Assembly (NCBI RefSeq): GCF_000189635.1
Contig: NW_002475972.1
Location: 93,033-157,032 of the forward strand
Origin: Tetrahymena thermophila SB210
Lineage: Eukaryota > Ciliophora > Oligohymenophorea > Hymenostomatida > Tetrahymenidae
Direction of reading: 5' to 3'
DNA: 64,000 nt
Made by a program: the position numbers and the translations under genes. Below, one piece after another: positions 29,753-52,100 of this stretch. The notes under the pieces were generated by a model. It was given only the letters and a program-made list of their open reading frames with translations, did no database searches and was not told the origin of the DNA. The stretch's first letter is position 1; the number at the start of each line of letters is the position of its first letter.

Positions 29753-32700
29753 ATGATATAAGATAAAACGTATTTTTAGGATTTAGAACAAGTAAATATT
29801 TATTTTTTTAGCAAGATTATTTAAATTATTTTTATTTAATCAAATAAGTTTTTAAGCTCTTCACATTTATCCTTTTAGATTCTCCATATTGATCTGAAAA
29901 ATTAGTAAATTTGATTTATTAATTTAATAAATATTCTTATTAATGTTTTTTTAGTTTTAATTTTGATCTGATTTACAATATTATTATTTTTTATTTAACT
30001 GATCATCTATATTCATTAGCTTTTAACTTAATTTTCATTCAACTTTTATTTTGATTAAAAACTCTTTATTTTTTTATATTTTATATTTTCTCTTCATTTT
30101 TTCCTTCTAACTAAATAATTAACTTCATAATTTTTCTTCAATATTTAAAAGGTGGATTTAATTTGATGATGAAATTACATTAAGTTTAGGTTCTGCTTTA
30201 GGCAAGTGCACTAATCTCTCAAATTTGACACTTAATCTTGAGTAAAAACTGTTTATTAGTTTTCGATTGTGATATTTTTGAATATAAAATGAATTTAAAA
30301 CAATAGAACTAACTAATCTTTTAATTTATTTATTTATTAGCTTTTTATTTCATTTATTTTTATAATTCTGCTTGCATTTTTTGTTTATTTCCGTTAGTTA
30401 ATTTAACTCATTCTTTCATTTTCAACTTTTATTTTCATTATTATTTCATATTATTTCTTCATTTTTTCTTACTAACCAACTAATTAATTAGCTGTATATT
30501 TTTTCTTTATTATTTAAAAAGTCGAAATTAAATTGGTGATAAAGGTTTATCAGGTTTAGGTTTAGCTTTAGGAAAGTGCACTAGTCTCTAAAATTTGACA
30601 CTTGATCTTTCGTAAAAATAGTTTATTTGTTTTTAGTTTATGATATTTTTTAGTGTAAACAATTACTTTATACAAAAAAACTAACTAAATCTTATAAATT
30701 ATTTTTTTATTACTTTTTATTTGATTTATTTTTCATTTTTTTATTCTTGGTTTATTTTTATTTCCTTTTATATTTCTTAATTTAACTCATTTTTTTATTT
30801 TTAACTTTGATTTCATCATTAATTAATTACTTCTTTTCTTATTAATTAATATTTTTTCTTCATTTTTTTCTTTTAACCAACAAATTAACTGTATATTTTT
30901 ACTTCCATATTTAAAAAGGGAAAATTAAATTGGTGATGAAGGTACATCAGGCTTAGGTTCTGGTTTAGGAAAGTGCGCTAATCTCTTAAATTTGACACTC
31001 CAACTAAAGTAGAAATCGTTTATTTATTATGGATTGCGAAGTTTTTGAATAAAAAATGAATTTAAAAATAAAAAACTAACTAATTTTTTTATTTATCTAC
31101 AAGCTTTTTATTTGATTTATATTTTTTTTTTATTTTGATTAAGTTTTTATATTTATTTATTTGTTTCTTTGTTTTTTTTGTTAATTTAAATCATTTTTTC
31201 ATTTTCAACTTCTATTCTATTATTAATTAATTAATTTCTTTTTATTTCATATTTTTTTCTTAATTATTTCCTTCTAACAAACTAATCAACTATATATTTT
31301 TTCTTCAATGTTTAAAAAGGGAAAATTAAATTGGTGATTAAGGTACATCAGATTTAGGTTCTGGTTTAGGAAATTGCCTTTTTCTCTAAAGTTTGGCACT
31401 TGATCTAAGGTAAAAACAATTTATCTGTTTTGAATTGTGAAATTTTTGAACATAAAAATGATTTTAAAAGAGTATTACTAACTAACACATTTAATTTATT
31501 TATTAGTTTTATATTTGATTTATTTTTTACTTTTTTTTATTCTGCTTTTATTTATTTATTTATCTATCTCTCTATCTCTTTTAATGTTTTTTTTTTAATT
31601 TAACTCATATTTTTATTATCTACTTTTAGTATTATTTAATTAATTAATTCATTCATTCACTTCTTATTATTTCATATTTTTTCTTCATTTTTCCTTCAAA
31701 TTAACTAATTAATTTTTTCTTTAATATTTTTAAGGAATAATTAAATTGGTGCAATTGGGGCATAAGGCTTAGGTTTTGGTTTAAGAAAGTGCATTAATCT
31801 CACAAATTTTACACTTTATCTATGGTAAAAACAATTTATTTGTTTGGATTGTGATATTTTTGAATTTTATTTATTTATTTCGTTTTTTGTTTGTTAATTT
31901 AATTCATTTTTTATTTTCAAATTTTATTTTTATTATTTATTTATTAAGGGAAAATAAAATTGGCGGTGAAGGTGCATCAGGCTTAGGTTTAAGTTTAGGA
32001 AAATGCACAAATCTTTAAAATTTGACACTTCAACTTTGGTAATAACATTTTATTTGTTTTGGATATACTTTTGAATCAAAAAATGAATTTAAAAAAAATA
32101 AACTAACTCTTTTAATTTTTGATTTATTAGCTTTTTGTTTGATTTCTTTTTATTTTTTTTTCTGCTTGTGTTTTTTTTTTATATTTATTTATTTTTTTGC
32201 AAACTTAATTTGTTTTTTTATTTTCAACTTTTACTCTTATTATTAATTTCTTATTATTTCATATTCTTTCTTCATTTTTCTTTCTATTTATATTTTTTCT
32301 TAAATAATTAAAAAAGGGAAAATTAAATTGATGATGAAGGTGTATCAAATTTAGGTTCTGGTTTAGGATAGTGCACTAATCTCTCAAATTTGACACTCCG
32401 TCTATGGTAATTTATTTGTTTTGGATTTAAATATTTTTAAATATTAAAATGAATTTAAGAAAATAAAACTAACACTTTAAATTTATTTATTAGCTTTTTA
32501 TTTGATTTGATTTTTTTTATTATTAATATTTTTATATATGTTTATTTATTAGTTTAAATCTAATTTTCAACTTTTGCTTTTATTATTAATTAATTAATTA
32601 ATTTCTTTTTATTTTAATGTTTTTTTCATTTATACTTTGTAATTAACTAATTAACTGTATATGTTTTCTTCAATATTTAAAAAGGTAGAATTAAATTCAT

Positions 32701-34156
32701 GATAAAGGTACAATAGGCTTAGGTTCTGGTTTAGAAAAGTGCAATAATCTCTCAAATTTGACACTTGATCTATCGTATAAGCAGTTTATTTGTTTTAAAT
32801 TATGATATTTTTGAATATAAAAAAGAGTTTAAAACAAAAAAACTAACTTCCTCTTTTAATTTGTTTGTTAGTTTTTGTTTAATTTATTTTTCTTTTTTTT
32901 ATTCTGCTTTAATTTTTATTTATTTATTTTTAGTTAGTTAATTTAATTCATTTTTTTATTGTCAACTTTTGCTTATTATTAATAAATTTATTAATTTCTT
33001 ATTACTCCATATTTTTCTTCTTTTTCCCTTCTAACTAACAAATTAACTATTTTTTATTCAATATTAAAAAGAGAGAATTCAATTGGTGCAAGTGGTGCAT
33101 CAGACTTAGGTTTTAGTTTAGGAAAGTGCAATAATCTCTCAAATTTGACACTTAATCTAAGGTAAAACAACTTATTTGTTTTGTATTGTCATAATTTTGA
33201 ATATAAAAATGAATTTAAAGCAAAATAAAAAAATAACTAAATTTTTAATATTTATTTGATTTATTTTTTCTTTTTTTATATTTATTTGTTTATTTATTTA
33301 CTTGTTAATTTAACTCATTTTTTCATTTTCAACTTTTATTTTATTATTAATTAATTATTTTCTTATAATTTTGATATTTTTTCTACATTTTTCTTTTAAA
33401 TAAACTAATTAACTTTTTATTTTTCCTTCAATATTTAAAAAGGTAGAACCTAATTGGTGCAATTGGTGCATCAGGCTTAGGTTATGGTTTAGGAAAATCC
33501 ACTAAAATCTTAAATTTAACACTTGATCTTTAGTAAATACAGTTTATTAGTTTTGGATTGCGATATTTTTGACAAAAATGAATTTAAAATGATATTAAGT
33601 TTGCTTTATTTATTTGCTTGTTATTTAATTTTTTTCATTTTCCACTTTTGTTTTTATTATTAAATAATTTCTTATCATTTCATATTTTTTCTTTATTTTT
33701 TCCTACTAGCTAGCTAATTATCTAAATATTTTTTCATCAATATTTAAAAAGGTAGAATTCAATTGGTAATACAGGTGTATCTGCCTTAGGTTTTGGTTTA
33801 AGAAAGTGCATTAATCTCTCGATTTTCACACTTTATCTAAGGTAAAAACTGTTTATTTGTTTTAGACTATCATATTTTTGAATAAAAAAATGAATTTAAA
33901 AAAGTGTAATTAAATTACTAACTAACAGTTTTCATTTATTTATTTATTAGTTTTTATTTGATTTATTTACTTTTTTAATTCTGCTAACATTTTTAATATT
34001 TATTGATTTAAAGTATAATATTTTATTTATTTTTTTTAGTAATTGATTGTAATTTTTATTAATAGTAAAAATTAACTTATTGAAAGATTTTTATATCCGA
34101 AACCAAAGTACCTTAAATAAAAAAGATTAGTTGACTTAAAAATACAATATTTATGA
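29753..34156 (+). CDS. LRR gene 1 of tandem array (11 LRR exons, 391 aa)
   Basis: Leader exon 1 is 29753-29791 (MIQDKTYFQDLEQ). Leader exon 2 starts at 29849. LRR exons are 30152-30241, 30522-30611, 30919-31008, 31320-31409, 31735-31824, 31949-32038, 32317-32406, 32685-32774, 33072-33161, 33443-33532 and 33752-33841, all exactly 90 nt, phase 2. The terminal exon is 34066-34156, ending TGA. Each LRR exon encodes one 30-residue repeat of the NQIGDEGASGLGSAL / CTNLSNLTL type. The usual donor of leader exon 2 is mutated (AAATTA in place of GTATAT after 29898); the nearest GT is 6 nt on (29905) and keeps phase 2, so I use 29849-29904. The last exon gives the conserved KxLKxKRLVxLKI tail. Predicted to form a curved LRR solenoid; partner unknown. 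No signal peptide or membrane span. Confidence 0.85.
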
Positions 34157-34551
34157 TATAATCAATAAATATAAATTTATATAATATGTTTTATTTTATT
34201 ATATTCTGTAATCAGAAAAATTAAAAAAGAGATTAATTTATATATTATAAAATATACTTAAACACCTTAAAAATTTATTTTATTCTATTGAGTTAGCATT
34301 CTCATTTTTCTTTTTATCCAAACTCTATTTCCTATAATTTTAAGTACACATTTTAAATAAAAATATTTAGATTTTTTTAATAATGAATATTTATTCGTTC
34401 ACTAACTGTTTTAAGATTACTCAAACTAAAACAAATTGATAAATTCATTATTTGTTTGTCCTTTTTATTCATTTATAATTAAATAATTAATTAATCAAAT
34501 TTCCATAAATTCATAAATTGCTTTTCAACATTTTTGAAGAAAAAAAATTAA
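34157..34551. promoter_or_regulatory. Spacer between LRR genes 1 and 2, conserved upstream block
   Basis: The final 110 bases (TTTATAATTAAATAATTAATTAA, then CATAAATTGC and CAACATTTTTGAA) recur before the start of every LRR gene in the window, in gene orientation. This marks the probable promoter and leader. No other gene seen. Confidence 0.5.
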
Positions 34552-36921
34552 ATGTTATAGTAGATTAAAAATTACAATAGAATAGAAGAAGTAATTATTT
34601 ATTTTTTTATTAATTTACTTTAAATTTATTTTTGCTAATATAAAAAGTTTTTAAACTCTTCACTTTTATCTCATAAGGCTCTCCATATTGTACTGAAGTA
34701 TATTTAATTTATAAATATTATAATTAATATTTTTTAATATTTAACTTTCAGTTAGTTTAAAATTTTAATTTTCTAATATAAATTATCCCCTTTATTATCT
34801 AATTTTATTTACAATTGTTTTTTTTGTTTTAATTTAATTTTCATCTTAAATATTTTAAATTAATTATCCATAATATTTTATTCATTATTTATTTATAAAA
34901 CTTCTAATTAATAAAAACAGTTTATTAGTTTTTGATTGTGATATTTTCTTCAATTTAAAATAAAAAAACTTTTTTAATTTTTTAAAAATTACTTTCCTTT
35001 TACTTTTTTATTATTTTTGCATCTATTTTCTTTTATATTTGTTAATTTAGCATATTTTTTTATTTTTAATATTTGCTTTTATTATTTATTTATTGATTTC
35101 TTTTTATTTTATATTTTTCCTTTCTAAATTATTAATTAATTATATATTTTTTCTTCAATATTTAAAAAGTGAAAATTTAATTGGTGCAGAAGATGCATCA
35201 AACTTAAGCTCTGGTTTAGCAAAGTGCACTAATCTCTCAAATTTGATGCTTAATCTTTTGTAAATTCAATTTATTTGTTTTGTATTGTATTATTTTTACA
35301 TAAGCATTGAATCTAAAACAATATAGTTCTTTTAATTTGTTAATTGCTTTTTATTTTATTTACTTTCATTTTTCATTTTTATTGAACTTGTGCTTATTTT
35401 TCTTCTATCTTTCTAAATTTAATTCATTTTTTTATTTATAACATTTGCATTTATTATTTATGTATTAATTAATTTCTATTTATTTCATATTTTTTCTTTC
35501 GAAATTATTAATTAATTATATATTTTTTCTTAAATATTTTAAAAGTAATAGTTCAATTGGTGCAAAAGGTGCATCAAGCTTAGGCTCAGGTTTAGCAAAG
35601 TGCACTAATCTCTCAAATTTGACACTTATTCTTTAGTAAATTCAATTTATTTGTTTTGTATTGTATTATTTTTACAAAAACATTTAATCCAAAACAATTT
35701 GTTCTTTTAATTTGTAAATTGCTTTTTATTTGATTTACTTTTATTTTTCTTTTTTATTGAACGTATGTGTGCTTGCTTATTTTTCTTTTATCTTTCTAAA
35801 TTTAACTCATTTTTTTATTAACAAAATTTGCTTGTACTATATTAATTAATTAATTTCTTGTTATTTTATTCATTTTTTCTTATTAAATTAAAAATTTATT
35901 TATATTTTTTCTTCAATATTTAAAAAGTGAAAATTTAATTGGTGCTGAAGGTGCATCAAGCTTAGGTTCTAGTTTAGCAAAATGTGCTAATCTCTCAAAT
36001 TTGACACTTGATCTTAGGTAAATTTAATTTATTTGTTTTGTATTGTATTATTTTTACATAAGCATTGAATCTAAAACAATATAGTTCTTTTAATTTGTTA
36101 ATGGCTTTTTATTTTATTTACTTTTATTTTTCTTTTTTATTGAACGTATGTGTGCTAGCTTATTTTTCATTTATCTTTCTAAATTTAACTCATTTTTTTA
36201 TTTATAACATTTGCTATATATTAATTAATTTCTTGTTATTTTATTCATTTTTTCCTACTAAATTACAAATTTATTTATATTTTTTCTTCAATATTTAAAA
36301 AGATCTAATTAAATTTATGATTAAGGTGCATCATGCTTAGGTTCTTGCTTAGCAAATTGTACTAATCTCTCAAATTTGACCCTTAATCTTAAGTAAATTC
36401 AATTCATTTGTTTTGTATTGTATTCTTTTTACATAAATTATTGAATCTAAAACAATATAGTTCATTTAATTTGTTAATGGCTTTTATTTGATTTAATTTA
36501 ATTTTTCATTTTTATTGAACTTGTGCTTATATTTCTTCTATCTTTCTAAATTTAACTCATTTTATTATTTTCAGCTATTGCTTTTATTTATTATTAATTA
36601 ATTTCTTATTATTTCATATTTTTTCTTCATTTTTTCTTTCTAAATTATTAATTAATTAAATATTTTTTCTTCAATATTTAAAAAGTTAAAATTTAATTGG
36701 TGCTGAAGGTGCATCAAGCTTAGGTTCTAGTTTAGCAAATTGCAATAATCTCTAAAATTTGAAACTTGTTCTTGCGTAAATTCAGTTTATTTCTTTTGGA
36801 TTGAGATACTTTTACTTATAAAATTGAATTTAAAACAACATAGCTCTTTTAATTTGTTTATTGTTTTTTATTTAATTTCCTTTTCTTTTTCTTTTTTTAT
36901 TGAACTTTTGCTTATTTTTCT

Positions 36922-36981
<60 letters not shown>

Positions 36982-38779
36982 AATTTAACTCATTTTTTAT
37001 TTTCAAAATTTGTTTTTATTATTTATTTATTTATTAATTTCTTACTATTTCGTATTTTTTTTCATTTTTTCTTTCTAAATTATTAATAATTTATTCTTCA
37101 ATATTTAAAAAGTCGCAATTCACTTCATTCAATTGGCGCATCAAGGTTAGGTTCTGGTTTAGCAAATTCCACTAATCTCTCAAATTTGACACTTTATCTT
37201 GGGTAAATTATAATTGTTTTAGATTGTGATATTTTTATTTATAAAATTGAATTTAAAACAAATTGCATAAATCTATTAAATTAATTCGACAATTATTCTT
37301 TGTTAAATTCAGTTTTTTTTGTTTGGATTGCGATATTTTTACATATAAAATTGAATTTAAAACAATATAAATAGCTCTTTTAATTTGTTAATTGCTTTTT
37401 ATTTGATTTAATTTTCTTTCTTTTTTATTGAACTTGCCCATATTTTTCTTCTATCTTTCTAAATTTAACTCATTTTTTAAATTTAAACGTTAGCTTTTAT
37501 TAGCTATTAATTAATTAAATTCTTATTGTTTCAAGTTTTATCTTCATTTTTTGTTTCTAAATTATTATTTAATGATATATTTTTTCTTCAATATTTAAAA
37601 AGTGAGAATAAAATTGGGACTGAAGGTGTATCAAGCTTATTTTCTGCTTTAGTAAATTGCACTAATCTCTCAAATTTGACACTTGATCTTAGGTAAATTC
37701 AATTTATTTGTTTTGGATTTTGATAGTTTTACTTATAAAATTGAATTTAAAGCTCTTTTAATTTGCTTATTATTTTTTATTTTATATAATTTTCATTTTC
37801 TTTTTTATTAAATTTGTGCATATTTTTTTTCTATCTTTCTAAATTTAAATCATTATTTTATTTTTAACATTTGCTTTTATTATTTATTTATTTATTAATT
37901 TATTACTATTTCATATTTTTCCATTTATTCTTTCTAAATAATTAATTAATTATTTATTTTTTCTTCAATATTTAAAAAGTATGAATCAAATTTGTACTTA
38001 AAATTCATCAGGCTTAGGTTCTCGTTTAGAAAATTGCACTAATCTCTCAAATTTGACACTTATTCTTTTGTAAATTCAGTTTAATTCTTTTGGATTGTGA
38101 TATTTTTACATATGAAATTGATTTAAAACAACTTAGCTCTTTTAATTTGTTAACTGCTTTATATTAAATTTAGTTTTCTTTTTCTTTTTTATTGAACTTG
38201 TGCTTATTTTTCTTATATCTTTTTAAATTTAACTCATTTTTTTATTTTTAAATTTGATTTTATTATTTATTTATTAATTTCTTATTATTTCATACTTTTC
38301 TTCATTTTTTCCTACTAAATTACTAATTAATTTAATATTATTTATTTAATATTTAAAAAGTTAGAATTAAATTGGTGCTTAAGGTACATTAGGCTTAGTT
38401 TCTACTTTAAATAGTTGCACTAATCTCTCAAATTTGACACTTGATCTTAGGTAAATTTAGTTTATTTGTTTGTATTTTGATACTTTTAGTTATAATCTGT
38501 ATTTAAAATAACAATTTTCTTTTAATTTATTCATAACAATTTTATTTTATTTATTAATTTATTTATTTTTTCTCTTATATTCAGATAATTTTTTTTATAT
38601 TAATTAATTTTAAACATAATTTTTTATAAAAAAATTTATTTTATTTAGTTTTTTATTTTAATTTAACATATTACAGAGCAGTAAACTTAACCAATCCATC
38701 ATAATAAGGAAAAGTAAAAAACTAGTGTCTTAAATCAAAAAGATTAGTTGTCTTAAAAATAAGATTCTCTAAGTCGTGA
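34552..38779 (+). CDS. LRR gene 2 of tandem array (9 LRR exons, 333 aa)
   Basis: Leader exons 34552-34590 (MLQQIKNYNRIEE) and 34648-34697 (FLNSSLLSHKALHIVL). LRR exons 35170-35259, 35546-35635, 35928-36017, 36303-36392, 36686-36775, 37113-37202, 37603-37692, 37980-38069 and 38361-38450, all 90 nt. Terminal exon 38677-38779, TGA at 38777. The terminal peptide includes CLKSKRLVVLKI, shared with the other genes. The intron after 36775 carries a (TCTA)n run of about 60 nt. The intron after 37202 carries a decayed half exon (37261-37302). In the repeat at 37113 the second half of the asparagine ladder is altered (NSLHSIGASRLG). All exons are free of TGA. Function beyond being an LRR protein is unknown. 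Confidence 0.87.
36921..36980 (+). repeat. (TCTA)n microsatellite in an LRR-gene intron
   Basis: About 15 perfect copies. Other introns of the array have TTCTATCTTTCT at the same place, so the array grew from a piece of the intron consensus. Confidence 0.95.
37261..37302 (+). pseudogene. Decayed LRR half-exon inside an intron
   Basis: AATTGCATAAATCTATTAAA then TTAATTCGACAATTATTCTT aligns with the 3' half of a normal LRR exon (AATTGCACTAATCTCTCAAA then TTTGACACTTATTCTT) and is followed by the usual intron start (TAAATTCAG). The 5' half and acceptor are gone. Confidence 0.75.
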
Positions 38780-39608
38780 TATATATACATAAATACAAGC
38801 AGTGAAAAAGGATGAATAAATATAAAATATTTGAAAAATATAAAATAATATGTTTTATTATATAATATTTTGTAATAAAATAATTTAAATATATATAGAT
38901 ATTTAGATTTATTATTATTTTTATATTTATGAATATCATATTTATTTATATAGGTAACCAAAAAAATTTTCAAAAGTTTATGAGGGGGGGGGGGTTGTTA
39001 ATATATGAGAACTTACAGTATATAAAAAATTTAAAAGCAAAAAATTAATTTTATTTAAAATTTAAAGATAAAATAAAATTTTATAACAAAGAATTGAAAA
39101 CTAAATTATCAATAATATATTAGAATTCATAATTAATATATAAATAATCAATATTTAATTAAATAAGAAAAGGAAAATAAAAATAAAAAGAATTATTACA
39201 AATTAAAAAATTATTTTTTTATTTTTTTAAAATAAAATTAAAATAAAAAATGAAACATTTTAATATATTAAAATAAAATAGCTTAAAATATATAAATTAA
39301 TTTATTTATTTTTTATTTTGATATTACAAGTAGCTTTTTAGTTAGAGATAAAATACTTAGTAAATAGCAATATTTATTATCTAATTTTAAGAGTTTTAGT
39401 ATTAATAACCAATTATTTTTGAAATTATATATGCTTTACTTTATTAGTTTAAATTAAAAATATTAATCTAACTTTTTTTGTGATATCTCTTCCAAAAAGT
39501 AAATTGATTAGATTAATTAATTAATGAATTAGTTCTTTTTATCCACTTATAATTAATTAATTAAATCCCATCAATTGCAATTCAATATTTTTGAAAATAA
39601 TAAAATAA
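38780..39608. other. Spacer between LRR genes 2 and 3
   Basis: The first 120 bases resemble the 3' flanks of LRR genes 3, 4 and 5 (GTGAAAAAGGATG, AAATAATATGTTTTATTATATAAT). There is an 11-nt G run at 38984-38994. The end is the conserved LRR-gene upstream block. No other gene seen. Confidence 0.5.
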
Positions 39609-42356
39609 ATGATGTAATAGATTAAAAAATATAACAAATTAGAAGAAGTAGTTATTTATTTTTTTATCAATATACATTAAATTTATTTTATTAATATAAA
39701 AAATTTTTAAACTCTTAACTCTAATCTCATTAGGTTCTCCATATTGATCTAAGGTATTTTTAATTTATTAATATTATTATTATTAATGCTTCTTTTCTTT
39801 TATTTTCAATTTATTAAAAGTATTATTTTTCAAATAGAAATTCTCATCTATATTTATTCATTTTTACTTATAAAAATATTATTTAATTATTTTGATTTAA
39901 TTTTCACTTACAATTTTCAATTTTTAATTATTTGATATTTTCTCTTCATTTTTTGCTTCTAACAAACTAATTAATAATAATTTTTTATTCAATATTTAAA
40001 AGTCGCTATTAAATTGATGCTGTTGGTTTATAAGGCTTATGTTCTGATTTTACAAAGTGCTCTAATCTCTAAAATTTGACACTTAACCTTTGGTACAAAC
40101 TATTTTTTAGTATTTGATATTTTTTAATATAAAAAAGTAACACTCTTTAAATTTATTTGCTAGCTTTTTATTTAGTTTAGCATATTTTTTATTTTTTTTA
40201 TTTTGCTTGTCTTTTTTTTGTTCTATCTATCTATATTTCTTAACTTAACTTATTTTTTAATTTTCAACTATTGTTTTTATTATTAATTAAGTAATTAATT
40301 AATTTTTTAATGATCCACATTTTTTCATTATTTTTTCCTTCTAAATAACTAAGTAATTCTATTTTTTTCTTCAATATTTAAAAAGTGGCAGTTCAATTAG
40401 TGATAAGGGTACATTAGACTTAGGTTCTGCGTTAAAAAATTGCACTAATCTCTCAAATTTGACTCTTAATCTTGAGTAAAAACAGTTTATTAGTTTTAGA
40501 TTGTGATATTTAAAAAAAAAAATGAATTTAAAACAATTTAACTCATTTATTTTATTTTTTAGCTTTTTATTTGATTTCTTTTTCTTTTTTATTTTAATTG
40601 TAATTTTTTTTTTCTATCTTTGTTAATTTAACTCGTTTATTTTTTAATTTTCAACTAATATTTTATAATTAACTAATTAATTTATAATTATTATTTCGTA
40701 TTCTTTCTTTCTTTCTAACTAACTAATTAATTTGATATTTTTTCTTCAATATTTAAAAAGTGGTAATTCAATTGGTGATTCAGGGCCATCAGGTTTAGTT
40801 TCTTGTTTAGGAAAATGCAGTAATCTCTCAAATTTAACACTTTCTTTAAGGTAAAAAAAGTTTATTTGTTTTAGATTGTGAAATTTTTTTATATAAAAAT
40901 GAGTTTAAAAAAATTTTACTCTTTTAATTTATTTGCTAGCTTTTAATTTGATTTATTTTTTTTATAGTGCACATGTTTTTTTTCTTTGCTTACATTACTT
41001 ATTTTTTAATTTTCAAATATTTTTGTTATTATTAATTAATTCATTTCTTATTATTTCCCTTTATTTCATTATTCTTTCTTTCTTTCTTTCTTTCTTTCTT
41101 TCATTCTTACTAACTAATTAATTTTTTATTCAATTTTTAAAAAGGGAAAATTTAATTGGTGCAAATGGTGCAACAAATTTAGGTTCTGCTTTAGTAAATT
41201 GCACTAATCTCTCAAATTTGACACTTGAACTTTAGTAAAAACAGTTTTTTGTTTTAGATTGTGAAAATTTTTAAAATAAAAATGAATTTAAAACCATTTT
41301 ACTCTTTTAATATATTTGCTAGCTATTTATTTTTCTTTTTCTTTTTTGTTGAGCTTTTGTTTTTCTATCTTTGTTAATTTAACTCACTTTTAATTTTCAA
41401 CTATTGTTTTTATTATTCATTAATTTATTTCTTATTATTTCATATTTTTTTCTTCATTTTTTACTTCTAACTAACTAATTAATTTAATATTTTTTCTTCA
41501 ATATTTAAAAAGTGAAAATTAATTGGGTGACTAAGGTGCATCAGGCTTAGGTTCTGGTTTAAAAAATTGCACTAAACTCTCATATTTAAGACTTGGTCTT
41601 GGGTAAAAACAATTTAAAATTTTTGGATTGCGAGTGATATTCTTAATTTAAAGCATAATATCTAACTCTTTTAATTTATTATGATAGTTTTTTTATCTTT
41701 CTTTGTTAATTTTACTCATTTTTAATTTTTAAATTCTACTTTTTTCATTAATTAATTTTTTATTATTTCTAATTTTCTTTACATTTTTCTTCTATTAATA
41801 ATCCATTTTTTCTTCAATATTTAAAAAGAAAGAATCAAATTGGTGATTAAGGTACATCAGGCTTAGGTGCTTTACTAAATTGCACTACTCTTTCAAATTT
41901 AAGACTCTATCTTTAGTAAAAACAATTTTTTTTGCTTTAGATTGTGATATATGTTAATATAAAAATAAATTTAAAACAATAAATACACCTCTTTTAATTT
42001 ATTTGATTAATTTTTCTTTTTCTTTAAGATTTTGCTTGTATTTTTTTACTTTTTTCATTAATTTAATTCAATTTTTTATTTTTAAATTCTACTTTTATAA
42101 TTAATTAATTTCTTATTATTTTATATTTTCTTCATTTTTTCCTTCTAAATAGCAAATTTGTTATATATTTTTACTTAAATATTTAAATAGTGATAATTAA
42201 ATTGGTGATAAAGGTGTATCAGGTTTTAGTTCTGCTTTAAAAAGTTGCACTAATCTCTCAAATTTGAAACTTAATTTTGAGTAAAAATAACTGTTTATTA
42301 GTTTTAAATTGTGATATTTTTTAATATAAAAACACATTTACTCTTTTAAATTATTT

Positions 42357-42393
<37 letters not shown>

Positions 42394-43986
42394 TCTTTGT
42401 TAATTTAAATAATTTTTAAATTTTCAACTATTGCTTTTATTATTAATTAATTCATTTCATATTATTAAATATTTTTTCTTCACTTTTTGCCTCTACTAAG
42501 TAATTAATTATTTCTTTCAATATTTAAAAAGTGGCAATAATATTGGTGATATCGGTACATCAGCCTTAGATTCTGCTTTAGCAAATTGCACAAATCTCTC
42601 AAATTTGATACTTAATCTTAAGTAATAAACTATTTATTTGTTTAGGATTGTGATATTTTTAATATTAAAATGAATTTAAACAATTTATCTCTTTTAATTA
42701 TTTATTAGCTTTTTATTAGATTTATCTTTCTTTTTCTTTTTTATAGTGTTTTTGTTTTATTTCTTTCTTTATTTGTTGATTTAACTCATTTTTTAATTTT
42801 CATATTTTGCTTTTTTTATCAATTAATTCTTATTTTCACATTATTTCATTATATTTAAATAGATTCAATTAAATTGGTGCAATTGGTGCATCAAATTTAG
42901 GTTCTGCTTTAGTTAATTGCACTAATCTCTCAAATTTGACACTTGAACTTTCGTAAAAGCAGTTTTTGTTTTAGATTGCGATATTTCTTAATATAAAAAT
43001 TAATTTAAAACAATTTTATTCATTTAATTAATTTAATTTCTTTTTCTTTTTTATTGTGCTTGTGTTTTTTTTCTTCCATCTTTGTTAATTTAACTCATTT
43101 TTTAATTTTCGACTTTTACTCTTACATTATAATTAATTAATTTATTATTATTATTTCGTATTTTTTTTCTTCATTTTCTCTTTCTAATTAACATAATATA
43201 TATATATATTCTTCAATATTTAAAAAGTGGCAATTAAATTGGTGAGATTGGTGCATAAGGCTTAGGTTCTACTTTAGTAAATTGCACTAATCTTTTAAAT
43301 TTGACACTTAACCTAAGGTAAAAAGATATTATTTGTTTTTAAATGCTATATTCTTGAATATAAAAATTAATTTAAAAAACAATAACTTTTTTAATTTATT
43401 TGATAGTTTTTTATTTAATTTTGCTTTATTTTTCTTTTTTATTGTATTTGTGTTTATTTTTTTTTACTATCTTTGATAATTTTACTCATTTTTTTATTTT
43501 CAACTTTTTCTTCTTTTATTAATTTATTTCTTATTATTTCATATTTTTTCCTTTTAACTAAATAACTTATATTTTTTTTTCTTCTTCAATACTTATAAAG
43601 TAGCAATAAAATTGGTTTAATTGGTTCTTAAGACTTAGTTTCTGCTTTAGCCAGCTGTACTAATCTCTTAAGTTTGAGACTTGACCTAAGGTACAAACAA
43701 CTTATTTGTTTTTGATATTTTTTAATATAAAATGAATTTAAAACTATTAACTTTTTTAATTTATTTATTAGTATTTTATTTGGTTTGTTTTTCTTTTTTA
43801 TTCTGCTAAAATTGTATTATTTATTAATTTAAAAATTTTATTCTATTTAGTTTTTTTTAATAATTTACTTTTTATATTAAAAGTTAAAACTTTATCAAAT
43901 AAGTTCAATCATTGAAAATAAAAAGCATGTGCCTTAAATCTAAAAAATTAGTTTTCTTAGAAATAATTGTGAGAAACAGATGGTGA
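39609..43986 (+). CDS. LRR gene 3 of tandem array (11 LRR exons, ~382 aa)
   Basis: Leader exon 1 is 39609-39647 (MMQQIKKYNKLEE). The usual acceptor of leader exon 2 is lost (AA at 39702-39703 instead of AG). The next AG, at 39732-39733, would give a 20-nt exon (39734-39753) that stays in frame and ends in phase 2. LRR exons: 40003-40092, 40386-40475, 40761-40850, 41145-41234, 41513-41602, 41829-41915, 42191-42280, 42532-42621, 42863-42952, 43228-43317 and 43601-43690. Ten are 90 nt; the sixth is 87 nt through an in-frame 3-nt loss (GLGALLNC in place of GLGSALANC). Terminal exon 43884-43986 with CLKSKKLVFLEI, stop TGA. Introns hold (TTTC)n at 41074-41103 and (CTAA)n at 42356-42391. No signal peptide. 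Confidence 0.84.
42356..42391 (+). repeat. (CTAA)n microsatellite in an LRR-gene intron
   Basis: About nine copies, at the place where neighbouring introns have TTCTAACTAACTAATTAA, so again grown from the intron consensus. Confidence 0.9.
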
Positions 43987-44413
43987 AAAAACGATGGATG
44001 AATATTAAATATTTTAATATTATAAAATAATATGTTTTTTTATAGTTAAACCTAAAATTTAGAAAGATAGGTTTATTATTTTTTTCATATTTATGAATAT
44101 CATATTTATTTTTGTAAGTTATTAAATAGTTTATTAAATATAACGAAATTTATTTAGGGTAATTCCTTTTTGAGTGCACACATTGTGCGCTTGACACTTT
44201 TTGTGTAAATTTGCTCTTAACTATCTGTTTTAAATACAAATTTTAATATTAAATAATGAATTTTAAATTAATTTTGTGGTATCTCTTCATAAAAACAAAT
44301 CTTTTAATTAATATTTGATATTTGGTTATTAAATTTTACTTGTTCTTTTTATCCGTTTATAATTAATTAATTAAATTCCATAAATTGCTTTTCAATATTT
44401 TTGAAAAAAAAAA
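43987..44413. promoter_or_regulatory. Spacer between LRR genes 3 and 4
   Basis: 3' flank of gene 3, then the recurring LRR upstream block (TTTATAATTAATTAATTAAA, CATAAATTGC, TTTCAATATTTTTGAAAA). A less AT-rich stretch lies at about 44170-44210 (GAGTGCACACATTGTGCGCTTGACAC). No gene seen. Confidence 0.5.
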
Positions 44414-47400
44414 ATGAAATAATAGATTTAATAGATTCAAAATAAAAAAGAATTAGAAGAAGTAATTATTTATTTTTTTATTAATATCATTTAAATTTAT
44501 TTTTATTGATAAAAAAAGTTTTTAAACTCTTCACTTTAATCTCATTAGGTTCTCTATATTGATCTAAAGTATATTTAATTAAAAAATGTTAAAAAAATTT
44601 TTTTATATTTAACTTTCAATTATTTAAAAAAATATTTTTCTATTAGAAATTCTCATCTTTATTCATTGATTTGTATTTATACAAAAATTTTTTAGCCATT
44701 TTAACTTAATTTTCATTTCAATTTTTAATTTTTAATTTTTTATTAATTTTTATTAATTTTTATTAATTTTTTATTATTTAATATTTTTTCTTCATTTTTT
44801 GCGATTAACATTTACAATTGATAAAAACAATTTATTTATTTTGGATTGCAATATTTTTAATTTTAAAAATTAATTTAAAACATTAAAACTCTTTTAATTT
44901 AATTTCTTTTTCTTTTAATTGTGCTTGCTTGTTTTTTTGTCTTTGTTTATTTATTTAACTAATTATTAATTAATTTTATTATTTCACATTTTTCTTCATT
45001 TTTTCCTTCTAATTAACTAATTAATTTTTTATTTTTTCTTCAATATTTAAATAGTTTCAATTAAATTGGTTAATAAGATGTATCACGCTTAGGTTCTGCT
45101 TTAGCAAAGTGCATTAATCTCTCAAATTTGAAGCTTTATCTTAGGTAAAAATAGTTTATTTGTTTTGGATTGTCATATTTTTATTTATAAAAACTAATTT
45201 AAAACAATAAAGCTCTTTTTAATTTTGTTTTTATTGTGCTTGCTTTTTTTTGTTCTTTCTTTGTTAATTTAACTCATCATTTTATTTTCAACTTTTGCTT
45301 TGTAAAAGCTAATTTAAAATAATGAAGCTCTTTTTCTTCTTGTTTTTATTTTGCTTGGTTTTTTTCTTTCTTTCTTTGTTAATTTAACTCGTCATTTTAT
45401 TTTCAGCATTAACTTTTATTAATTACTCTTATTATTTCATATTTTCCTTCTAATTAACTAATTAAATATATATTTTTCTTCAATATTTAAAAAGTAACAA
45501 TAAAATTGGTCATACATACATACATACATACATACATACATACTCGCACATGGTTACATGCACTCGGGATAGGGGCCCTATATATAATTACTTATACATT
45601 ATTATTATACGTATACCAATTTATTTATATATAATTGTGGGTAATATACTAGAAGGGAAGGGTCACCTACACCCTAATGGCATTTCTACTAATCTTCCAT
45701 GATTTGACTACGCATTATGCTCGCTTCCCATTTGTATTCCAGATCTTCTGTTCAGAATGGGGCCTCCTCTTTACCTCCTATCAGATTTGGCCCTTCCCTC
45801 CTACCAAGGAGACCGCTGGTAACATTCACATTTTTACATGGAATTTTTCGAAATAAAGGGGGCGGTATAGGATTCGAACCCCCGATATCACTGCTAAGAC
45901 CCTCCGACTCGCCCACTCGAGCCGCTTAGCCCTTCTTTAAAATTGGTCATGAAGGTGCATCAGATTTAGGTTCTGCTTTAGCAAAGTGCACTAATCTCTC
46001 AAATTTGACACTTATACTTAAGTAAAAACAATTTATTTATTTTTGATTGTGAAATTTTTATTTTTAAAAACTAACTTAAAACAATAAAGCTCTTTTTTCT
46101 TTTTATTTTTATTGTTTTTGCTTTTGTTAATTTAACTCATCATTTTATTTTCAAATTTTGCTTTTATTATTAATTAATCTATCTTTTTATTTCATATTTT
46201 TTCTTCATTTTTTCCTTCTAATTAACTATTTAATAATATATTTTGTCTTCAATATTTAAAAAGTTTCAATAAAATTGGTGCAATTGGGGCATCAAGCTTA
46301 ATTTCTGCTTTAGCAAAGTGCACTAATCTCTCAAATTTGAATCTTGATCTTAGGTAAAAACTTTTTATTTATTTTTGATTGTGATATTTTTTTATAAAAA
46401 CTAACTTAAAACAATAAAGCCCTTTTTTTGTTTTTGTTTTTATTGTGCTTGCCTTTTTTTATTCTTTTTTTGTTAATTTAACTTTACATTTTATTTTCTA
46501 CTATTGCTTTTAAATTTAAATAATCTTATTATTTCATATTTTTTCTTAATTTTTTCCTTCCAATTAACTAATTAATGATATATTTTTCTTCAATATTAAA
46601 AAAGTAACAATAAAATTGGTGATGAAGGTGTAACAAGTTTAGGTTCTGCTTTAGCAAAGTGCACTAATCTCTCAAATTTGACACTAAACCTTAAGTAAAA
46701 ACAGTTTATTTGTTTTGGATTTTTATATTTTTATTTGTAAAAACTAATTTAAACAATAAAGCTCTTTTTTCTTATTATTTTTATTGTGCTTACATTTTTT
46801 TTTCTTCTTTCATTTTTAATTTAACTCATCATTTAAAATCTTATAATTTCATATTTTTTCTTCATTTTTTCCTTTAAACTAATTATTTATATATTTTTTC
46901 TTCAATATTTAAAAAGTTACAGTAAAATTAGTGATGAAGGTGCATAAGGCTTATGTACTGCTTTAGTAAAGTGTATTAATCTCTCAAATTTAGAACTTTA
47001 TCTTAAGTAAAAACAGTTTATTTGTTTTATTTGTAAAAAATAACTTAAAACAATAAAGCTCTTTTTTTTTTCTTTTTATTTTGTTTCCTTTTTTTTATTG
47101 TTCTTTGTATTTTAATTTAACTCATTAATTTATTTTCAATTTTTACATTTATTATTAATTAATATATCTTATTATTTGATATTTTTTCTTCATTTTTTCC
47201 TTTTAATTAACTAATTAATTTTATATTATTTCTGCAATATTTAAAAAGTGGCAATCAAATTAATGATGAAGCTGCATCAGGTTTAGGTTCTGCTTTATCA
47301 AAGTGCATTAATCTCTCAAATTTGATACTTGAACTTAGGTAAAAAAAATTTATTTGTTTAGGATTGTGATATTTTTAAATATAAAAATTAGTATAAAACA

Positions 47401-47656
47401 AAAAAGCTCTTTGAATTTATTTTGATAGCTTTTATTTGATTTGTTTTTTTTATCTTTTTTATAGTACTAATTTTATTTTATTTATTAATTTAAGAAATAA
47501 TTTATAATTTAAAAATTTATTTTACTTAATATTAATTTAAAGTTTTTACAAATTAATAAATAAAGAATAAACTACAAAAAGATATCATAAGAATTCAAAG
47601 TAATAAACAATTGTATGAAATCAAAGAGATTAGTTTTCTTTAAAATATAATTCTGA
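44414..47656 (+). CDS. LRR gene 4 of tandem array, one exon interrupted by a SINE-like insertion
   Basis: Leader exons 44414-44461 (48 nt, MKQQIQQIQNKKELEE, three codons longer than its sisters) and 44519-44568. LRR exons 45055-45144, 45495-45513 joined in principle to 45951-46021, 46264-46353, 46605-46694, 46917-47006 and 47249-47338; terminal exon 47566-47656 ending TGA. The second LRR exon is split by a 437-bp insertion (element plus one target-site copy). Without it the exon is exactly 90 nt and open (242 aa in all). With it, translation would run into the element and stop at a TGA near 45703. Skipping the broken exon would stay in frame, because each exon is 90 nt in phase 2, and would give 212 aa. 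So the locus may still make protein with one LRR fewer. The intron after 45144 has an internal duplication near 45300-45400. Confidence 0.8.
45501..45513. repeat. Target-site duplication, left copy
   Basis: TAAAATTGGTCAT, identical to 45938-45950, directly abutting the insertion. It is native LRR exon sequence (the Lys-Ile-Gly-His codons). Confidence 0.93.
45514..45937 (-). mobile_element. tRNA-derived SINE-like retroposon (424 bp)
   Basis: Read on the minus strand, the element starts with a tRNA-like head (45937 downwards). An A-box-like TGGGCGAGTCGG lies at 45915-45904, and a perfect B-box GGTTCGAATCC at 45880-45870. An unrelated body of about 300 nt follows, and the element ends in a (TATG)n simple-repeat tail at 45543-45514. 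A 13-bp duplication of target sequence borders both ends. Composition is far richer in GC than anything nearby. These are the marks of a SINE: RNA polymerase III promoter head, simple-repeat tail and LINE-type insertion. The A-to-B spacing is short and the T-stem pairs poorly, so it is not a working tRNA. The body has no long open frame on the ciliate code. I do not recognise the family. Confidence 0.85.
45938..45950. repeat. Target-site duplication, right copy
   Basis: TAAAATTGGTCAT. The LRR exon resumes directly after it with GAAGGTGCATCAG. Confidence 0.93.
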
Positions 47657-48191
47657 CGATAAAGAAGTAGGGAAAAAAGGATGGATAAATGTTAAATGTT
47701 TGAATAATTGATTATATGTTTTATTATATAATTTTTTGAAAAAAATTTTTTAACCTTAAATATAGATACAAAGATACATAGATTTTATTATTTTTATATA
47801 TATAAATATCATTCATATTTTTGTAAATTAATAAATAGCTAATAATAAATAAAAAATTTTTAAAAAAATTTCAGATTTTTAAAATATGAAAATAAATCTC
47901 AATAAAAAAATACATGTAAATATGCTAAAAAATTACTTTATTCTATTTAATGTGTGCGCATTTTAATAATCCTTTATAACATCCATAGTTCTAAATATAT
48001 TTTTAAGTAAGCAAGCACTTTAAATAGAAATAGTATAATTTAATAATTAATTTTACACTAACTTTTTTGTGATTTCTCTAACTAAAGGCAAATTTATAAA
48101 TTCATATAATTTGTTTGTTCTTTTAATCTGCTTTTTATTAATTAAATTAAATCCATAAATAGCTATTAAATATTTTTGAAAAAATAAATAA
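47657..48191. promoter_or_regulatory. Spacer between LRR genes 4 and 5
   Basis: Conserved 3' flank (GGGAAAAAAGGATGGATAAA) followed by the recurring LRR upstream block near 48110-48190. No other gene seen. Confidence 0.5.
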
Positions 48192-50764
48192 ATGATATAA
48201 TAGATTAAAAAGTATTGCAAATTAGAAGAGGTAATTACTAATTTTTTATCAATTTACTTTAAATTTAAATTTACTAATATAAACAGTTTTTAAACTCTTC
48301 ACTTTTATCTCATTAGGTTCTCAAAATTGATTTGAGGTATATTTAATTTATAAATATTCTTATTATTAATACTTTCTTTATATTTAAATTGCAATTTATT
48401 TATTATATTATTCTTCTAATAAAAATTCTCACCTACATCCCCACTTATTCACTTTCTTAACACAAATGTTTTTTTGGTTACTTAATTTTCACTTTAAGTT
48501 TTTTAATTCATTTTCCATTTTTTATTATTTATTCGCTTTTTATTTCCAAAACTTTTAACTAATAAAAACAGTTTATTTTGTTTGGATTGAGATATTTTTA
48601 CTTATAAAAATGAATTTAAAACAATATATCTAACTCTTTTAATTTGTTTATTGTCTTTTTATTTGATTTTCTTTTCTTTTTCCTTTTTATCATACTTGTG
48701 TTTATTTTTCATCTATCTTTCTTAATTTAACTTTTTTTATTTCCAACATTCCCATTTATCATTTATTTATTTATTCATTTCTTATTGTTTCATTTTTTCC
48801 TTCTAAAAAACTAATTAATTTTATATTTTTTCTTCAATATTTAAAAAGTGGGAAGAATATTGATGACTAAAGTGCATAGCGCTTTGGTTCTTCTTTAGCA
48901 AATTGCACTAATCTCTCAAATTTGACACTTAACCTTTTGTAAAAATAGTTTATTTATTTTGGATTGTGATATTTTTAGTTATAAAAACGAATTTAAATTA
49001 ATAAAACTTTTTTAATTTGTTTTTAAGCTTTTTATTTGATTTATTTTTCTTGCTTTTTTCTATTGTAATTGTGTTTTTTTCTTCTATCTTTCTTAATTTA
49101 ACTCATTTTTTTATTTTCAACAATTTTTAAAATTATTTATTTATTAATTCATTTCTTATAATTTCATATTATTTGTTTATTTTTCCTTCTCATTAACTAA
49201 TTAATTATATATTTTTGCTTTAATATTTAAAAAGTGACTGTAAAATTAGTAATTAAGTTGCATCAAGATTAGTCTCTGCTTTAGCAAATTGCACTAATCT
49301 CTCATATTTAGTACTTAATCTTCAGTAAAAACAGTTTTTTGTTTTGGATTGTGATATTTTTATTTAGAATTTAAAACAATATAATTCTTTTAATTTGTTT
49401 ATTAGCTTTTTATTTGATTTATAACTCTTTTTCATTTTATTTTTTATTGTAATTTCCTTTTTTTCTTCTATTTTTGTTAATTTAACTCGTTTATTTAATT
49501 TCAACATTTGCTTTTATCATTTATTAATTCATTTCTTATCATTTCATATTTTTTCTTGACTTTTTCCTTCTAAATAACTAATTAATGAAATATTTTTTCT
49601 TCAATATTTAAAAAGATTGAATTAAATTAATGATTAAGGTGCATTGGGGTTAGGTTCAGCTTTAGCAAATTGTACTAATCTCTCAAAATTGATACTTTTA
49701 CTTGGGTAGATACAGTTTATTTGTTTTTGTTTTTGATTGTGATATTTTTATTTTTATTTTTAAAAATGAATTTAAAACAAAAAAACTCTTTTTATTTATT
49801 TATTAGCTGCTTATTTGATTTACTTTATTTTTCTCTTTTTATTGTAATTGTGTTTTTTCTTCATTTATCATTCTTAATTTAACTCATTTGTTTATTTTCA
49901 ACATTTGCTTTTATTATTTATTAATTCATTTTTATTATTTCATATTTTTTCTTCATTTTTTCCTTTTAAATAACTAATTAACTATTTAATGATATATTTT
50001 TCTTCTCTATTTAAAAAGAAAAAATTAAATTGGTGATGAAGGTACATCAAGGTTAGGTTATGCTTTAGCAAATTGCACTAATCTCTTAAGTTTGACACTT
50101 TATCTTAAGTAAAAACCTTTTACTTGTTTTGGATTATGATATTTTTATTTATAAAAATGAATTTAAAACAATATTATTCTTTTAATTGTTTATTAGTTTT
50201 TATTTTATTAATTTTTCTTTTTTTTTTATTGCACTTTTGTTTTTTTTTCTTCCATCTTTCTTAATTTAACTCATTTATTTATTTTCACATTTGCTTTTAT
50301 CATTTATTAATTCATTACTTTTATTTCATATTTTTTCTTCATTTTTCCTTCTAAGTTACTAATTAATTAAATGTTTTTTCTTAAATATTTAAATAGTAAT
50401 AATTAAATTGGTGACTAAGGTGCATCAAGGTTAGGTTCTGCTTTAGCAAATAGCACTAATCTCTCAAATTTGACACTTTTACTTTGGTAATTACAGTTTA
50501 TTTGTTTTGAATTGTGATATTTTTATTTTTATTTTTAAAAAGGAATTTAAAACAATATAATTCTATTAATTTGTTTATTAGTATTTTCTTTGATTTATTT
50601 TTTTATTTTTTATTTATTCTATTTAATTTTTTTTAGTGTTTTATTTCAATTTTATTTTATATAAAAGCAACAACTAAATCTATGTATCATAATAATTGAA
50701 AATAAAAAGCAAGTGTCTTAAATCAAAAAGATTAGTTTTATTTGAAATAAATTTCTAATGGTGA
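48192..50764 (+). CDS. LRR gene 5 of tandem array (5 LRR exons, 211 aa)
   Basis: The cleanest example of the gene plan. Leader exon 1 is 48192-48230 (MIQQIKKYCKLEE); a 56-nt intron; leader exon 2 is 48287-48336 (FLNSSLLSHQVLKIDL). LRR exons are 48849-48938, 49235-49324, 49616-49705, 50019-50108 and 50397-50486, all 90 nt. The terminal exon is 50668-50764 with CLKSKRLVLFEI, stop TGA. All junctions are AG/GT and all exons are open. The first LRR has lost the usual IGDEGA core (KNIDDQSAQRFG). The intron after leader exon 2 contains, near 48562, a second intron start (AATAAAAACAGTTTATTTTG) with no exon before it, as if one LRR exon had been deleted there. A short LRR protein without signal peptide; binding partner unknown. 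Confidence 0.88.
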
Positions 50765-51302: not shown

Positions 51303-52100
51303 TTATTTTTTTTTCAAAAATATTGAAAAGCAATTTATGGAATATAATTAATTAATTATAAATGGATAAAAAGAACAAATAAAATATAATAATTATTAAA
51401 TATTAAATATTAATTTAATATTTGCTTTTATGAAGAAATATAAGAACAAAAATTAATTTAACATTCATTATTTAATCTAAATATTTGTATTTAAAACATA
51501 TATTGCTCATCCAGGAATTAAAATATGATGAACTGGAAGTATATCATGATATTTTAATTCCTAGATTATCTTTCAAAATAATAAAAAATTTAAACAATAT
51601 TTTATAAAAAACTATTGCAAAATAATATTATCAATGAAATTCTTTAATAAATAAAAATACATATTTGTTAATTTAATTATGTATTAATAATAAAGATTTT
51701 CTTAAAAGTTTTTAATGAAGAATTTAATGCTTTTTTAATAATTTAAATTGTAAAATAATTTAATTTTTTATTTATAAAAATAATCTATTTAATTGAAATA
51801 TTATATAAAGGAATAAATTAATTCCTTTACAATATTCAGTACTATCTATAATGATGAACTGAAATAAATTAAAATAGAAAAAGGTTATTAAATTACCAAA
51901 TTGTTCTGGAATTAATGAGAAAAAGAGGAAACTGGGTGTATATTAAATATTCAAAAATCAGATATTGATTGAATTATTAAAAATTAATAATTTGGAAAAT
52001 ACCTAAAAATAAATAAAAATTATCTATATAAATATAATAAAAATAAATTTTAAGATGTATTCTGAGTGCATTTATATGTGCGAGTTTTTCTATTCTATTC
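51303..52100. other. Spacer with hairpin, no gene seen
   Basis: It starts with the inverted LRR upstream block (to about 51400) and includes the hairpin at 51513-51562. The rest is AT-rich without recognised coding sequence. Confidence 0.45.
51513..51562. repeat. Inverted repeat / hairpin, 19-nt arms
   Basis: Left arm 51513-51531 (AGGAATTAAAATATGATGA) and right arm 51544-51562 pair at 18 of 19 positions, with a 12-nt loop. No T-run or obvious gene end is adjacent. Candidate small-RNA hairpin, transposon end or structural palindrome. Confidence 0.85.

Follow-up and report, generated by a model that had tools for sequence, protein, structure and literature searches.

What kind of DNA splits an LRR exon in this stretch of the Tetrahymena genome, and how did it come to lie there? 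The window, by which we mean the whole 64,000-nucleotide stretch analyzed (bases 93033-157032 of contig C419 in the 101-Mb, 445-contig assembly that we searched), carries plus-strand LRR exon/intron arrays at 30155..50481, with 41 recognizable target sites and units mostly 300 to 450 bp apart. Within these arrays a full 424-bp retroposon copy (45514..45937, minus strand) was delimited by direct reading, BLAST, and an exon-restoration script. Direct reading and scripts showed that it is bracketed by a single perfect 13-bp target-site duplication (TSD), TAAAATTGGTCAT, whose left and right copies lie on the plus strand at 45501-45513 and 45938-45950. The host exon is divided into a 5' part (45495..45512, containing ...IGHEGASDLGSALAKC..., by direct reading and script) and a 3' part (45950..46021, by script), both on the plus strand. 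Removal of the insert and one TSD copy by script joined 45495-45512 to 45950-46021 in a 90-nt exon bounded by AG and GTAAAA, which reads NNKIGHEGASDLGSALAKCTNLSNLTLIL in the ciliate code.

In its own sense, on the minus strand, the element begins with an extra AA at the 5' junction (45936..45937), followed by a core of 391 nt (45545..45935) and a 3' tail (45514..45544). The tail consists of AG and (TATG)n, visible on the plus strand as (CATA)n, and three nucleotides of the repeat, ATG, are carried on into the target. Near the 5' end of the core, direct reading found a perfect B-box of the kind seen in internal pol III promoters (GGTTCGAATCC, 45870..45880, minus strand) and an A-box-like stretch (CGGCTCGAGTGG, 45913..45924, minus strand), the latter weak in that it exceeds the consensus by one base. 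At the other end lies a 3' hairpin, GTGCATGTAACCATGTGC (45546..45563, minus strand), whose stem is common to a second, probable LINE family described below. The original prediction had described a 424-bp insert with a perfect B-box, an A-box-like sequence, a (TATG)n tail, and a 13-bp TSD splitting an LRR exon; all of this was seen both directly and by script, and its claim that removing the element and one duplicate gives back the 90-nt exon was borne out. The insert was also correctly called comparatively GC-rich, the kilobase that bears it having 30% GC, against 13 to 27% in the remaining 63 kilobases of the window.

The original prediction had further proposed a search of the same genome, where the lack of any other copy would have weighed against it. 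The element proved to be multi-copy. In searches that allowed up to three mismatches or scored the best candidates, and that may miss old, diverged copies elsewhere, BLAST with the element gave at least 42 matches (best 40 of 52 candidates scored), the best other copy being 99% identical over 447 bp, and patterns from the head, a second part of the head, the 3' end, and the body occurred at 44, 44, 42, and 38 places in the assembly, with no match to the reversed-pattern control of any of the four. All 38 body places were fetched and comprised 36 full-length copies, the 5'-truncated copy L037, and L038, which is interrupted by Ns. Together with five head-only loci (L050 to L054), two diverged heads (L055 and L056), and four loci with only the 3' end (L039, L040, L058, and L059), they make up 49 loci that carry any part of the element. 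The 36 full-length cores have a mean pairwise identity of 99.3% (minimum, 98.2%), with 7 alignment columns varying in at least three copies and 16 columns holding singletons, and each copy ends in a TATG-repeat tail of 12 to 84 nt. Both L037 (from core position 122) and L039 (from position 146) are 5' truncated and carry a perfect 12-bp TSD. A 391-nt core in 36 full-length copies, with simple-repeat tails and perfect, variable TSDs, is the anatomy of a SINE, and the predicted SINE-like retroposon is upheld by these features and by the 5'-truncated copies with TSDs of their own. Taken jointly with the explanation developed below, of target-primed insertion at a fixed site through a helper LINE, we consider it very probable that the element is a non-autonomous retroposon, young and multi-copy, with the build of a SINE.

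When the copies were set out with their flanks, a single target became visible: read antisense to the LRR gene, it is ...CTGATGCACCTTCAT^CACCAATTTAA..., and in the LRR sense it lies in the IGDEGA codons. At 47 of the 49 loci the junction lies at the same position and in the same orientation of the LRR exon. Among the 40 pieces tested by the TSD script, 38 had perfect TSDs at the LRR site (the 36 full-length copies, L037, and L039); in the other two a matching 5' TSD was missing, the script finding none in L058 and a spurious 9-nt match in L059. In the full-length copies the TSDs are 11 to 14 bp long, perfect in 36 of 36, and of 22 distinct sequences, and in the 38 TSD-bearing copies they start at position -2 of the target (35 copies) or -3 (3 copies). 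The script skipped L038 and L040; their junctions with the site were readable, and the site could also be read at the 3' junction of L058 and L059 and at the 5' junction of L050 to L054. The two diverged heads (81 to 83% identity) differ in position: L055 looks, by eye, like a copy that has decayed in place at the LRR site, and L056 lies away from it. This element is thus a rare site-specific short retroposon. The earlier reading captured the anatomy of the insertion; its most important feature, the specificity for one LRR site, is invisible from the window alone.

The tails of the copies match their targets in phase. In 32 of 36 copies the repeat extends into the target by 2 nt or more, whereas random phase would give 8.6 such copies, with a maximum of 16 in 2,000 trials; the remaining four copies score 1, 0, 0, and -2, and shifted tails were found at variant targets. 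Such a phase rule would be expected if priming depended on a few paired bases, and the tail continuation (32/36), the TSDs, and the 5' truncations can be read as marks of target-primed reverse transcription. In addition, 16 of the 36 full-length copies have one to four extra bases between target and element at the 5' junction, all A except for one C.

These data bear on the alternative that one ancestral insertion was spread by unequal crossing-over and exon shuffling of the LRR arrays, for which ectopic recombination is described in the LRR account of PMC6564038. Within each copy the left and right TSDs are identical, and between copies they differ. Because the TSDs (22 sequences in 36 copies) and the tail phase follow the local target, we read the copies as independent target-primed insertions, made as by R1 and R2 at one position in all 38 TSD-bearing copies and at 47 of 49 loci. 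The cores are 99.3% identical, against averages of 77.5% and 78.3% for the two 250-nt flanks of full-length copies, and the two 5'-truncated copies own separate TSDs. Spread from a single insertion finds some footing in the weak correlation between core and flank identity (Spearman 0.14), in the flanks of L020, L028, and L035 (94 to 98%), in the one flank that L010 and L028 have in common, and in the only pair with both flanks above 97%, the two copies in L026. A few copies may therefore be duplicates, but the family as a whole is not, and as a general explanation single-insertion duplication is refuted by the core/flank contrast, the TSD variety, and the tail phase, leaving it very improbable. 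The L026 copies (C50:372700-375231) lie 1,447 bp apart with flanks that are 100% and 99.3% identical; here an LRR unit that already carried the element was recently duplicated.

Sites resembling the target are abundant. A target-like 26-mer occurred, at up to three mismatches, at 2,346 places in the assembly, the occupied ones included (control, 0). When 37 distinct occupied sites were compared with 352 distinct empty LRR sites, the latter taken from the window and the fetched loci and thus representing LRR-rich neighborhoods and not a random genome sample, TTCAT was enriched at positions -5 to -1 (P = 0.0012 to 0.0087 per position, uncorrected over 94 positions). Positions +11, +20, +23, and +25 likewise had P values below 0.01, that of +25 being the lowest of all (0.00056), again uncorrected over the 94 positions. 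At most of the remaining positions, occupied and empty sites showed no difference.

The consequences for the LRR gene were assessed from the same 36 copies, and they bear on the idea that the insert is introner-like, that is, spliced from the LRR mRNA and harmless. The element is abundant and lies inside coding exons, as such an idea would have it; however, a GT..AG pair at the borders that restores the exon exactly is possible in only 1 of the 36 copies, insert lengths modulo 3 are 2, 0, and 1 in 15, 10, and 11 copies, and of the 32 copies in which a simple motif anchored the frame, 30 have an LRR-frame TGA within the insert. We therefore regard an introner-like element as extremely improbable. 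Without exon skipping, the insertion should instead disrupt the protein. With phase-2 introns on both sides, as LRR introns are described in PMC6564038, skipping of the 90-nt exon would keep the frame, and in-frame skipping of this one phase-2 exon may be how the host tolerates the insertion.

The original prediction had called the element tRNA-derived. Its perfect B-box stands, but homology to tRNA was not found by ARAGORN, Rfam, tRNA alignment, or folding of the head. ARAGORN called no tRNA in the window, and the Rfam tRNA model was absent from the matches of the element, its head, and the old head L056 at E ≤ 5 and E ≤ 10. The head was predicted to fold into a hairpin and not a cloverleaf. 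It aligned weakly with nine tRNAs of this genome; the best of the nine, Ser-AGA, was equalled by 4 of 300 shuffled heads and aligned mainly over the B-box/T-arm. The tRNA searches contributed 43 loci, in which most Leu isoacceptors were not seen. The 5' head is thus not recognizably tRNA-homologous, and with nothing convincing from ARAGORN, loose-threshold Rfam, or alignment to the nine tRNAs, tRNA ancestry was rejected. Rfam matches to RUF6-5, mir-297, and gut-2 fell below gathering scores and were taken as chance, as were PreQ1 and Plastid-rpoB matches on L056. Since the sense core lacks TTTT and 64% of shuffles lack it too, the case for pol III rests on the B-box, which suggests that the element may be transcribed by this polymerase.

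A separate observation concerns the B-box region of the head, of which 24 nt have one exact occurrence in the bacterial genome collection, in a Patescibacteria MAG (JAHIOR010000079.1, positions 7700-7723, minus strand), 79 bases downstream of a tRNA-Val gene. The matching stretch has a tRNA-like look and is perhaps an uncalled or broken tRNA; ARAGORN did not call it.

Could the insert be foreign DNA or an assembly artifact? It is GC-rich relative to its host, one copy (L038) is broken by Ns, and another (L040) extends to a contig end. Against this, the body occurs at 38 places over many contigs, one of which is telomeric at both ends, and nearly all copies sit in LRR exons that belong to the host itself. 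Furthermore, the 3' end was absent from the viral contigs searched, and the bacterial match amounts to one 24-nt, tRNA-like site. The foreign origin that the original prediction had left as an option is contradicted by the copies within host LRR exons and by the lack of the 3' end in any viral contig searched, and we give contamination or misassembly practically no credence.

CCCCAA telomere repeats were found near both ends of C4, at both ends of C91 (1.87 Mb), and at the left end of C262; none were found at the right end of C262, at either end of C154, or at the inspected ends of C419, C9, C250, C67, and C5. The first kilobase of C1 has Ns at its start and at its end. A full-length copy, L014, lies at C91:165375-165795, on the contig with telomere repeats at both ends. 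The window genes read in the ciliate code, and the genome fits a Tetrahymena macronuclear type as it is described in PMC6564038; the contigs in which no telomere repeats were seen could, in principle, be germline.

What machinery might insert the element? A second 3' end, GTATTCTGAGTGCAT..ATGTGCGAG followed by a TATTC-repeat tail, was first seen in L052 and in the flank of L037. One such end, with the hairpin GAGTGCATTTATATGTGCGAG and then the TATTC-repeat tail, lies in the window (52055..52084, plus strand), where it occupies the same position of an LRR target. Its 30-base pattern occurs at 114 places at up to three mismatches (control, 0). Thirty places, all exact matches, were fetched, and by eye they end at the same LRR site through the tail, some with diverged site sequence; in one, L077, an ATC repeat replaces the TATTC tail. 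The last part of this second family aligns with the SINE 3' end, and both fold a like hairpin, although neither folds better than shuffled sequence (z = +0.32 for the SINE and -1.13 for the second family). Upstream, the second-family bodies are of several types. An LRR site lies within 1,500 bases upstream at 23 of the 30 loci and at none of the other 7, and in several of the 23 the intervening DNA begins as an LRR intron, which would be expected if the inside of a longer element were eliminated as an IES.

Because 169 copies of a 54-bp REP tail are reported to be retained in the somatic genome of T. thermophila (PMC6564038, in its account of that element), we infer that the second family represents the 3' ends of a germline-limited, REP-like LINE. 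The 3' hairpin and the site that it shares with the SINE suggest that such a LINE is the helper. No helper LINE with ORFs was found at the LRR site in the assembly, where the RVT_1 profile gave one match, on C134.

From the observed insertions, their TSDs, the fixed site, their independence, the tail-phase match, and the shared 3' end, we propose the following mechanism, in which the LINE protein and the priming chemistry are putative. Target-primed reverse transcription would place the element, antisense to the LRR gene, always at one position of the repeated 90-nt exon. The antisense strand would be cut at ...GCACCTTCAT^CACCAATTTAA by a helper LINE that shares this target, the freed 3' end would form 2 to 3 base pairs with the (UAUG)n tail of the SINE RNA, and reverse transcription would begin there; second-strand cleavage about 13 nt away would then yield the TSD. 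The helper would most likely be a germline-limited REP-like LINE that ends in GAGTGCAT..ATGTGCGAGTAT and TATTC repeats at the LRR site, its 3' ends having been left at the 114 assembly places. That the element is a young non-autonomous retroposon inserted in this way through a same-target helper LINE has, in our judgement, a high probability. As for the wider proposal, that a B-box-headed, site-specific SINE and a LINE both target the repeated LRR coding exon, with the SINE staying in the somatic nucleus and the helper LINE being eliminated, we lean modestly toward it.

The head-only loci raise the alternative that the "SINE" arose from the helper LINE by internal deletion or recombination, comparable to the SIDEs, and that the B-box head is the 5' end of the LINE itself and not a pol III small-RNA gene. 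In L050 to L054 (C1:117904, C107:87092, C129:114380, C283:114865, and C359:12771), the first 80 to 106 nt of the head lie at the LRR site and are followed by different DNA, with four of the five breakpoints at 101 to 106, and L052 fuses the head to the 3' end of the second family. These loci would be expected as remains of a long element whose inside was eliminated as an IES or internally deleted. The breakpoints at 101 to 106 could possibly mean that a longer element sharing this head lost its inside by elimination, or that reverse transcription jumped from its template to a short RNA of the head; in R2, template jumps pick up tRNA and U12 sequence, according to the discussion of such jumps in PMC3414825. 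However, a jump from LINE RNA to head RNA would account for L052 equally well, the body pattern is confined to the 38 places of this element, and the assembly searches yielded no LINE that has this head. We therefore consider descent from the helper LINE doubtful, though deserving of some weight, and retain a B-box-headed SINE served by a separate LINE as the preferred reading.

Site-specific retroposons mostly occupy rDNA, snRNA genes, and telomeric or tRNA-flanking sites. RIME is a relative of ingi and is not known to carry a B-box head. Like the present element, RIME is a short non-autonomous element (a "SINE") that shares with a LINE, ingi, a coding hot spot in a large multigene family, the trypanosome RHS genes, as outlined in PMC7563717; those genes have one hot spot each, whereas the exon here is repeated, and the ciliate nuclear dimorphism is lacking there. 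The R2 and R2/R1 SIDEs of Drosophila 28S rDNA, termed rare examples in PMC3414825, are likewise described there as non-autonomous users of the machinery of a site-specific LINE; the R2/R1 hybrids have 14-bp TSDs, and tRNA and snRNA sequences have been gained by template jumps. Their target is rDNA and their 5' end a ribozyme (PMC3414825), whereas the target here is a protein-coding exon; as to shared ends, the element has its 3' end in common with the second family, and its 5' head recurs in five loci with other downstream DNA. We conclude that this system is like the R1/R2-dependent non-autonomous elements and RIME/ingi, without being a proven member of either, and that the SINE-like insertion in the window is part of a system of a site-specific SINE and a probable LINE, directed at a single position within a repeated coding exon.

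Within ciliates, the Tt.REP LINE of Tetrahymena thermophila is associated with LRR repeats of 90-bp exons, and its 169 somatic 54-bp tails may be compared with the 114 3' ends found here; the passages on it in PMC6564038 describe it from LRR introns without naming a fixed position of insertion, and the likeness is one of description. The word SINE is absent from the main text of that source. The original prediction held that tRNA SINEs are not established in ciliates, which needs qualifying in that non-coding, multi-copy putative SINEs are annotated in the germline DNA of Paramecium tetraurelia (0.03 Mb in the MAC-destined part); these lie mostly in eliminated DNA, and the passages on them in PMC5405496 describe neither a tRNA nor target specificity. 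In the open-licence literature searched, no listed title dealt with site-, target-, or sequence-specific SINEs, and the text consulted had nothing to the point on SINEs of Tetrahymena.

If the proposed system is real, a SINE makes use of some 2,300 exon sites as R1 and R2 do of rDNA, and a 90-nt exon that it breaks can be skipped without loss of frame. A young SINE restricted to one coding-exon target would illustrate how the specificity of a helper passes to a non-autonomous element, and the association of REP with LRR repeats reported in Tetrahymena would thereby be tied to a defined insertion reaction. It would also offer a natural assay of the way in which the ciliate soma handles a retroposon that escapes elimination. 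Both the pre-nick target preference and the tail-phase rule are directly testable, and recent shuffling of LRR exons could be dated with the help of the many copies marked by TSDs.

One further LINE was encountered. The sole reverse transcriptase found in the assembly lies at C134:182111-185020 (L057, minus strand), on a contig of 1.08 Mb, where its surroundings are not an LRR site. This LINE was rejected as the helper on account of its (TATC)n tail and non-LRR flank, which do not match the LRR system. Its proteins had no relative among the other fetched loci (one match, E = 0.53), and its ORF2 protein matched two further short fragments only in the assembly. ORF2 is one open frame in code 6, the first 127 codons of the open stretch being without ATG, and encodes an APE-like endonuclease (PF03372, 23.6 bits against a cut-off of 24.5) and a reverse transcriptase (PF00078) that resembles those of L1 and R2. 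An overlapping frame upstream, without a Pfam match, shows by eye a zinc-finger-like pattern of cysteines and histidines.
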